Positions 36,344 to 39,438 of a stretch of 64,000 bases of DNA are shown in pieces. Source of the DNA: Cryomorphaceae bacterium (lineage in GTDB: Bacteria > Bacteroidota > Bacteroidia > Flavobacteriales_D > Sanyastnellaceae); NCBI GenBank assembly GCA_016124575.1, contig WGNM01000020.1, positions 1 through 64,000 on the forward strand. Reading direction: 5' to 3'. A model generated the notes under the pieces. It searched no databases. It was not told the DNA's origin and worked only from the letters and a program-made list of their open reading frames with translations. Position 1 is the stretch's first letter, and each line of letters begins with the position of its first letter. Made by a program: the position numbers and the translations under genes.

Positions 36344-37000
36344 TCAGAGGAGTTTGTGTTCGATGGCGAATAAAACGAGGCCTACTTTGCTTTTGATTTC
36401 GAATTTTTCGAAGAGTTCTTGTCTGTAATAATCAACCGTTCTCTTTGTAATCCCCATGTTATCAGCTATTTGCTCATAGGTAAGTTCTTCTTTTTGGCAA
36501 ACCAGCTTAAGAAATTGCATTTCACGATCAGTGATTCGGCTTAAAACATCCTCTCTCGACCTTTCTTCTTTGGTTTTGAGTGTTGGGTTCAGGAGCATGG
36601 TACTGTGGACATCCTCATTGTGAAAATACCCTGTTGTGATGATAGCATCTATGGCTGCTTTGAACAAGCTTGGGCGCGCATTCTTCCGAATGAACCCACG
36701 AGCTCCAGCGCGTATTGCTTTGATGAGGGCGTCTTCGGAAGCATCCACGGTAAGTGCAAGTGTTTTGACGGAAGGATATTTCGCAGCAATGGTTTCAATC
36801 GTTTGGAATCCATCTAGAATCGGCATATGAAGGTCGATGATAGCTATATCTGGCAAAGACTCAAATTTAAAATATTGAATCAACTCCTCCCCATTGTCTG
36901 CTTCGAGGGTTACGGTATACCCTTCCATGTTATTGATGGATGCTACAATTCCAGCACGGACAATATGGTGATCATCGGCAACGGCTACTGAGTGTTTCAT
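36344..37000 (-). CDS. LuxR/NarL-type response regulator
   Basis: 218 residues. Receiver domain with the phosphoacceptor Asp in DIAIIDLHMPILDG near residue 55, the DD pair in VADDHH at 8-9 and K/T residues in TLALTVDAS and RKNARP. Output is an HTH domain of LuxR type (LSRITDREMQFLKLVCQK, YEQIADNMGITKRTVDYYRQ). It should bind DNA when phosphorylated. The ATG at 37000 overlaps by ATGA with the ancestral, now interrupted, end of the histidine kinase frame (TGA 36999-36997), confirming this start. The cognate kinase is therefore the gene before it. Confidence 0.9.
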   Translation of the reverse strand: MKHSVAVADDHHIVRAGIVASINNMEGYTVTLEADNGEELIQYFKFESLPDIAIIDLHMPILDGFQTIETIAAKYPSVKTLALTVDASEDALIKAIRAGARGFIRKNARPSLFKAAIDAIITTGYFHNEDVHSTMLLNPTLKTKEERSREDVLSRITDREMQFLKLVCQKEELTYEQIADNMGITKRTVDYYRQELFEKFEIKSKVGLVLFAIEHKLL

Positions 37001-37065
37001 GGCTTTATAAATTTCCAAGTGGTACCATTTTCATCGCTTGCGAGCGTGCTATGAATCCCTACCAA
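36997..37065 (-). pseudogene. Stranded 3' part of the histidine kinase after the in-frame TGA
   Basis: In frame with the kinase, codons after TGA read LVGIHSTLASDENGTTWKF and IKP, then a stop overlapping the response-regulator start as ATGA. The GTTWKF matches the G(T/S)T-x-x-F end of HATPase_c domains. It therefore looks like coding sequence split by one nonsense substitution (or a base-calling error), not intergenic DNA. Confidence 0.75.
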
Positions 37066-37755
37066 TCAAGTACGGTGAAAGATGTTTTTGATTCCGCTGC
37101 CAAGGCGTGAATCATCGACATTAAAGCCCTTTCCATTGTCGGACAATATGACTTCAAAAGGTTTAGCCCTCATTGAAACACTAATTAAATCAGCTTGAGC
37201 ATGTTTCATGGCATTTCGAATGACCTCTTGGAATACGCGATACATCATAATTCTTTCTTGTTCTGTAAGTCCATCTTTCTCATCGCGTTGATGAATGTGG
37301 ACAACAAAAGTTCCTAGTTTTTCGAGTCTACTTGCCTCCAAGGTTATTGCTTCAAAGAAATCTAAGTTCTTCCAAAAATCGCTGTTCATGGCGCGACCCA
37401 TTTGGCTTACCTCATCGATTGATAATTCCATCAATCGCAGTATTTCTTGAAAAGCCAGATCATTTTCCATTTCGCCGAAATGCCTCATCAATCCCAACTG
37501 CGCGGCCGTTAGTAACTGGCCTACATTGTCGTGCAATTCTCTCCCAACTTCCGACAACGTATTTTGGATAGCTTCTTTCTGCGCCTTTTCAACTTCAAGC
37601 AATTTTTCTTGTTCAATGCGTTCCTTTTCGGCTTTGTGTTGAAGTTTAGATTTTTGTCCACTCACTAACACCATAAACACCACCGACAGCAAAAGCAAAA
37701 AAGATAGCGACACCATGGCGACTATTAACAGTACATTATCTTCTGTTAAGTTCAT
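37066..37755 (-). CDS. Sensor histidine kinase (HisKA_3), truncated by an in-frame TGA
   Basis: The intact part has 229 residues: a transmembrane helix at about 8-31, a coiled coil to about 65, the H-box with His75 in GRELHDNVGQL, the N-box VFQEVIRNAMKHA, G1 DNGKGF and G2 GSGIKNIFHR, then a TGA at 37066. The same frame after it codes for 22 residues that look like the lost end of the ATPase domain. Without them the domain lacks its last strand and may be inactive or destabilised. A TTG at 37770 could start five residues earlier. The start overlaps the preceding membrane gene by 20 bases, so they are coupled. Confidence 0.78.
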   Translation of the reverse strand: MNLTEDNVLLIVAMVSLSFLLLLSVVFMVLVSGQKSKLQHKAEKERIEQEKLLEVEKAQKEAIQNTLSEVGRELHDNVGQLLTAAQLGLMRHFGEMENDLAFQEILRLMELSIDEVSQMGRAMNSDFWKNLDFFEAITLEASRLEKLGTFVVHIHQRDEKDGLTEQERIMMYRVFQEVIRNAMKHAQADLISVSMRAKPFEVILSDNGKGFNVDDSRLGSGIKNIFHRT

Positions 37756-38383
37756 TACTAGTATTTGCAAAGTGAAGTGAAACGGTAAAAACGACTAATT
37801 GCACGATAAATCCGACGTCATGAATAGAAAGCACCTTGCTCGCTAATATTTTATCGGTTTTCGCCAGATGCACACCCAATCCCAATGCGGGAATATCGCA
37901 CGTTGATAAAAACAAAATCCCCATGCCTGTCCAAAACTCACCAGACCTCAGCAAGGGCCTTTCTGAATTACTACTCAGACCGTAAAGAACAATTAGACAG
38001 TGAATTGCAAAAGTAAATGCTGAAAAAAGTATTAAATGTAACGTGTTGAATTTAGAGACCAACACACAGATTATTAGACAAAGCACCAAACCAGATGCCT
38101 TGAGGGCTATTTTTGACTTTGTGACTTTCATCTTCTTTCCCTGGTGCAGCAGAAATAGAAGCACATGCACAACTACAAAAGCTGCTGCCGCGTAAATCTG
38201 GTAAACAGTGTGATTATCAAGCCCCATTTTCCTAGTTATAAAACCAATCAACTCAACTCCGAATCCCAGAATCAGATAAACACCTAAATATCCAATCCAA
38301 CCCACCCATTTGCTTGGCATGCGCAGCCAGTAAATGAGTGGGATTAGGATTAAAATATTCTTAAGCTCAGATAAAAATGACAT
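37736..38383 (-). CDS. Polytopic membrane protein upstream of the kinase
   Basis: 215 residues with about six or seven hydrophobic segments (near 5-20, 25-45, 60-80, 95-112, 115-133, 145-165, 185-203), basic loops KKMKVTKSKIALK on one side. No conserved enzymatic motif that I recognise. Its 3' end overlaps the histidine kinase gene, and it is 29 bases after the preceding unknown gene. A 7TM-like input module for the small kinase, which lacks a sensor of its own, is a plausible inference. The family is unknown to me. Confidence 0.65.
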   Translation of the reverse strand: MSFLSELKNILILIPLIYWLRMPSKWVGWIGYLGVYLILGFGVELIGFITRKMGLDNHTVYQIYAAAAFVVVHVLLFLLHQGKKMKVTKSKIALKASGLVLCLIICVLVSKFNTLHLILFSAFTFAIHCLIVLYGLSSNSERPLLRSGEFWTGMGILFLSTCDIPALGLGVHLAKTDKILASKVLSIHDVGFIVQLVVFTVSLHFANTSNELNRR

Positions 38384-38412
38384 GAGCGGAAGTTAGGAAA
38401 TCCGCCTGACCT

Positions 38413-39264
38413 TTAGAATCTAACATGGTCACATAAAGGCGGACATAGATTTCCGTAGTCAATAGCTCTGCCTTGAAAGTAAGTCAAAACAACAGCACTA
38501 CCGACATTGAGTTCGTCTGTCAGAGAGTTCAAATTATCTAGGCCACCTATGTGCATCGCTTTGGAGTGATAATAGCCATTGGCACCATTAACTCTAACCC
38601 TTGTAGCACCATTGATAACGAAGGACGTGTAATCTGAAATTATTAAATATGGTCTTTTGCCAATTAAAGGGTTGGCCCTTTCCAATGCAACAACTTCTTT
38701 TTCCCATGGGAATAGAACTATTCTTGCATCCTCATGGGGATGCACGTCCTGAAAATTCGGTGTAGCAGGATTGATTGGCGCGCGATGTCTCTGAACAATC
38801 GAAAAATAATCGCTAGCATACTTCCAAGGCGAGGTACTGGCAGATATGGCATGGGTGCGTTCTGACGCTCCATTGTAGTTGACCATTGTACTAATTTCTT
38901 CAAACTCAAATTGCGGCTCTATTCTCTGGCCATTCGAAGGAATAAGAATGTTGTTATCGACACCTTCAACTATATCATTTTCAACACCGAAAACACTTAA
39001 TCCAGTTTTCACTTTTAGGTCTGCGTCCAAACCGATAAAAAAAGCAATTACAGCTTTTTCGGAAGAAATGTGTAAATCTTTTAGTCTTTGAATCACATGA
39101 GCTTTAAAAATGTCCCAAGGCACGAGAATTTTGCTGCCCATGGGTTGGTTGGACACTTTTTCTCTGAACAATCTTTGAAAGTTCGACACCCCATTCATGT
39201 ACTCTACTCTTGAGAGGTCTGGCACGGCCTTGTTCTTATCGTCGGCGCTTAATCTAATTGGCAT
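38413..39264 (-). CDS. Unrecognised soluble protein (283 aa)
   Basis: No signal peptide and no membrane helix. From the ATG at 39264 it starts MPIRLSADDKNKAVPDLS. The middle holds short hydrophobic strands (AVIAFFIGLDADLKVKTGLSVFG) and a Pro/His-rich stretch (NPATPNFQDVHPHEDARIV). The C-terminus is GNLCPPLCDHVRF, with two Cys that could bind metal or form a disulfide. I do not know the family. Placed 29 bases ahead of the membrane-kinase-regulator set and facing away from the gene at 39439, it may be the first gene of that operon. A longer start at 39303 is possible. Confidence 0.6.
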   Translation of the reverse strand: MPIRLSADDKNKAVPDLSRVEYMNGVSNFQRLFREKVSNQPMGSKILVPWDIFKAHVIQRLKDLHISSEKAVIAFFIGLDADLKVKTGLSVFGVENDIVEGVDNNILIPSNGQRIEPQFEFEEISTMVNYNGASERTHAISASTSPWKYASDYFSIVQRHRAPINPATPNFQDVHPHEDARIVLFPWEKEVVALERANPLIGKRPYLIISDYTSFVINGATRVRVNGANGYYHSKAMHIGGLDNLNSLTDELNVGSAVVLTYFQGRAIDYGNLCPPLCDHVRF

Positions 39265-39438
39265 AATAAAAAGATTTATTGGTTTGAGACAAAGTAACCT
39301 CATCCATTAGAAACGGAGCCTGTGAAAAAACACAGGGGGTTACCTGCGCTTACTACCTAGTTGTATATCAGCATGTTGTCATTGCTTTGTGGTGACTAAA
39401 ATAACATCAAGTCATTTTATAACCAAAAACCAATTGTC

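Follow-up and report, generated by a model that had tools for sequence, protein, structure and literature searches.

Two-component systems of the NarL/LuxR type with HisKA_3 kinases include those of LiaS and DesK, and VraS and DevS, both of which were linked to the present locus by sequence match, belong to the same type. The gene pair described here, which lies within a stretch of DNA of 64,000 nucleotides (analysed in full and referred to as the window), resembles these systems in its kinase-regulator order and in its domains, with HisKA_3 and HATPase_c in the kinase and Response_reg and GerE in the regulator. It differs from these systems in that the kinase is without the C-terminal part of its ATPase domain, owing to an in-frame stop codon. 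The best relative of solved structure is VraS (4gt8), which was matched by phmmer over residues 175-244 (E value of 9.6e-7) in a search that matched three distinct sequences. The second kind of described locus with which this one can be compared is the nonsense-interrupted gene, a candidate young pseudogene. The two are alike in having one in-frame stop, a homologous continuation and intact relatives, and the present case is set apart by having only a single lesion, which is located near the 3' end. Our preferred reading is that this is the kinase of a NarL/LuxR-type pair, which has probably acquired one real and recent nonsense codon, located 22 codons ahead of the original stop.

The interrupted kinase frame and its gene cassette

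All the features described here lie on the minus strand, where the frame of the kinase opens at ATG 37755, with TTG 37770 being the first possible start, and runs for 229 codons up to an in-frame TGA at 37066-37068, giving an open reading frame at 37066-37755 whose last residues are GSGIKNIFHRT. The same frame continues for 22 codons, LVGIHSTLASDENGTTWKFIKP, and then reaches TGA 36999-36997. This orphaned kinase 3' end and original stop (36997-37065), assigned by a profile of homologue tails and by a structural model, overlap the ATG of the regulator gene at 37000-36998 in the sequence ATGA. The earlier note had placed the stop, the 22-codon continuation and this overlap exactly. The regulator gene itself (36344-37000) is intact and encodes a receiver with a LuxR-type (GerE) output domain, with Pfam scores of 79.6 bits for Response_reg and 40.3 bits for GerE. 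No second stop or frame break was seen in the kinase or the regulator frame, and it is for this reason that we infer the nonsense change to be recent.

The kinase open reading frame has an N-terminal hydrophobic stretch, as judged by eye, and matches to both HisKA_3 and HATPase_c. On the protein, HisKA_3 scored 21.5 bits, which is under the cut-off of 24, and a six-frame search gave 24.8 bits, above the cut-off. The HATPase_c match scored 26.7 bits (cut-off of 26.4) and covers profile positions 5-55 of 111. Seven HisKA_3 matches were found in the genome that carries the locus (G000), and the other six lie in frames that pass the same point (G2 box) and proceed to the usual C terminus, as judged by eye.

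Two further genes lie upstream. The first encodes a 215-aa hydrophobic protein and overlaps the kinase open reading frame (37736-38383), and the second encodes a 296-aa protein (38413-39303); neither has a Pfam match, at thresholds of 0.001 and 0.01, respectively. Matches to the kinase at an E value of 1e-10 were found in 28 of 60 genomes searched, its own among them. In a search of 399 genomes of the order, sampled evenly from a larger group, only 3 reached an E value of 1e-28. These three are the genome itself, G041 (42% identity) and G123 (32%). In G041, the closest relative, the four genes have a matching order and the kinase is full length. The regulators are 57% identical over 220 columns, and the hydrophobic protein and the 296-aa protein both have counterparts at the same places (BLASTP E values of 5e-18 and 2e-8, respectively). 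In G123, the second closest relative, the gene order also matches and the kinase is again full length. Here, the hydrophobic protein shares only a 34-residue match with its counterpart (E value of 2e-6), and the 296-aa protein is not significantly similar to the protein at the same place (E value of 0.015, BLASTP), so that within the G123 cassette relatedness is shown only for the kinase and for that short match in the hydrophobic protein. The four-gene cassette at 36344-39303, with its relatives L003 and L112, may be an undescribed sensory module.

The post-stop tail and the loss of the ATPase C terminus

The open tail had been taken by the earlier note as the mark of a formerly continuous gene. 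At least 22 open codons follow 1731 of the 5178 stop triplets in the window when both strands and all frames are counted (33%). An open run of this size is therefore common by chance, and its length alone proves nothing. The same claim stands on homology. When scored with a profile of homologue C termini, the tail reached 10.2 bits and ranked first among the 2449 stretches in the window that follow a stop and are 15 codons or longer, the runner-up scoring 6.3 bits; with only 22 residues to score, the tail leads by a modest margin. This profile was built from 110 homologues and excluded the row from the window, although that row had been part of the underlying alignment. Judged by its likeness to homologous C termini, the tail is a true remnant of the kinase. 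In the read-through frame, the HATPase_c match grows only from profile positions 5-55 to 5-56, and phmmer aligns VraS no further than residue 244, so the homology of the tail rests on the alignment of homologues.

The 110 homologues comprise 80 sequences from a genome-contig search and 30 located matches from the 60-genome and 399-genome searches, matches of the 60-genome search that had no assigned locus being left out. All of them run past the column of the TGA, the shortest tail beyond it being 21 residues long. This supports the earlier claim that the kinase gene was once continuous and underwent a single nonsense change, and orthologues ending naturally at HRT were looked for and were absent from this set. 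The residue at the column is Arg in G041 and Gln in G123, and across the 110 homologues it is variable (21 E, 19 K, 17 R, 15 A, 9 D, 8 Q and 21 others); hence, no special residue is expected there. Stops occur within two of the homologue rows, L004 and L081, both of which were retained. The one in L004 sits immediately before the kinase ATG and hence is no lesion. The homologous stretch of L081 contains two stops.

The position of the stop within the fold was assessed with an AlphaFold2 model of the read-through kinase, in which the TGA was shown as W (40 sequences; mean pLDDT of 89 and pTM of 0.61). In this model, the last helix spans residues 220-231 and is followed by strands at 235-241 and 244-251. 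The stop, residue 230, falls within the last helix, so truncation there would remove both C-terminal strands of the ATPase sheet. The model thereby agrees with the earlier placement of the stop inside the ATPase domain. The Pfam match breaks off halfway, at profile position 55 of 111, and is almost equally short in the read-through frame. The product would be a protein of 229 residues in which the last ATPase helix is cut short and two strands of the sheet are absent. In such a truncated kinase, ATP-dependent autophosphorylation would be lost or strongly reduced, and the intact regulator, presumably uncoupled from its kinase, would be left unphosphorylated or would be phosphorylated by another donor.

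It is also conceivable, if improbable, that the truncated protein is functional, acting as a phosphatase without kinase activity or in partnership with another kinase. The short form retains the dimer helices and the sequence HDNVGQ, which we take to be the phosphoacceptor/phosphatase motif. The motifs known as the H box, the N box and the G1 box all precede the stop, and an alignment of 40 sequences shows no variation in its His, Asn and DNGKGF columns. The regulator downstream is, as noted above, intact. On the other hand, a natural short form of the kinase is unsupported by any of the 110 homologues, and the absence of the two sheet strands in the model should destabilise the domain.

Real mutation or assembly error

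An erroneous base in the assembly would be indistinguishable from a nonsense mutation, and a gene that is intact in the living cell is an explanation to which we give a minor but real share of the probability. A lone in-frame stop in two genes that are otherwise unbroken is what such an error would leave, and the genome assembly is a draft in 61 contigs. Its listed completeness of 100 and contamination of 0 argue against this, and substitution errors are rare in short-read assemblies. Among the matches listed for this genome, an internal stop occurs, apart from that of the kinase, only in prfB. This control is weak, because the list is small, some of its entries are short and the query for the kinase ends at the stop. 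A further point against the nonsense reading is that the closest relative of the kinase is only 42% identical.

A genome of the same genus, G001 (85% complete), contains a contig of 3942 bases (C196) that terminates inside the regulator gene, and the kinase was not found in this genome by protein or DNA search. The regulator fragment (L114:1498-1716, at the contig end) differs from the regulator described here by 17 synonymous and 9 non-synonymous codons out of 73, the stop included. For the neighbouring hydrolase, the same comparison gave 126 synonymous and 27 non-synonymous differences in the first 330 codons, aligned without gaps. Five of the nine replacements in the regulator fragment fall within eight codons of the helix-turn-helix, and the differences elsewhere are mostly synonymous. 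Such clustering could point to relaxed constraint or to poor assembly in this region and is too slight to use.

If the nonsense codon is real, the locus represents a strain or species in which a sensor cassette has lost or is losing its kinase and retains an intact regulator, as might plausibly happen on the way to the decay of a two-component system. For annotation, caution is advisable, and the kinase should be flagged as interrupted.

UGA decoding and read-through

The earlier note had listed programmed read-through as an option next to a sequencing error and a recent null, and among these three it is the least supported. Read-through of the UGA to give a small amount of full-length kinase seems to us very unlikely. 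As read-through would have it, the frame after the stop remains open and retains homology to intact kinases, but an open tail is equally to be expected from a nonsense codon of recent origin, and the kinases of G041 and G123 have no stop at this position. Furthermore, no signal for an RNA element past the stop was obtained: the 63 nt starting with the kinase stop fold no better than shuffled sequences, with a z score of -0.26 and 71 of 200 shuffles folding equally well or better.

UGA is an ordinary stop in the window, as had been noted earlier, with TGA terminating 10 of 49 greedily chosen open reading frames of at least 120 aa, the split kinase being counted. The RF2 gene prfB is present in the genome above the cut-off, which speaks further against read-through, and it contains one in-frame TGA, which we presume to be the known programmed frameshift site. 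With TGA ending these frames and prfB being present, a genome-wide reassignment of UGA was rejected, in line with the earlier view that a changed code is unlikely, and the kinase stop leaves the genetic code untouched.

The machinery for other ways of decoding UGA was likewise not detected. SelA had no match in the genome, with a model that detects SelA in only 4 of 14 control genomes, and SelB gave only a match below the cut-off, as it did in 12 of the 14 controls. Selenocysteine at the kinase UGA was rejected on these grounds. The tRNA survey found at least 44 Rfam tRNA places in the genome, 150 of 247 first-look candidates having been scored, and ARAGORN, run on stretches covering all 44 places, named 42 tRNAs, none of which has a UCA anticodon. 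A UCA suppressor tRNA was rejected on the basis of these 42 anticodons. The two places that received no ARAGORN call were inspected by eye: in one, the anticodon loop is interrupted by an insertion, and the other is under the gathering score and looks degenerate.

A combined scheme can also be imagined, in which the short form acts as a kinase-dead, phosphatase-type partner of the regulator, occasional UGA read-through yields a low level of active kinase and the stop thereby sets the balance between kinase and phosphatase; we regard this as a long shot. The locus is best read as a simple nonsense interruption and most likely reflects ordinary loss of function or a base-call error and no new decoding trick.

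Elsewhere in the same genome, tRNA-like places occur in clusters on the minus strand of two contigs, with seven on C47 (L142; 13 kb) and four on C10 (L152; 15 kb) at a spacing of 0.4-3 kb. Some of these have rare A34 anticodons (ATC, ACA, AAC and AAT), and one carries an insertion and a small hairpin in the anticodon loop, as judged by eye. These clusters possibly belong to a phage, to another mobile element or to a foreign contig.
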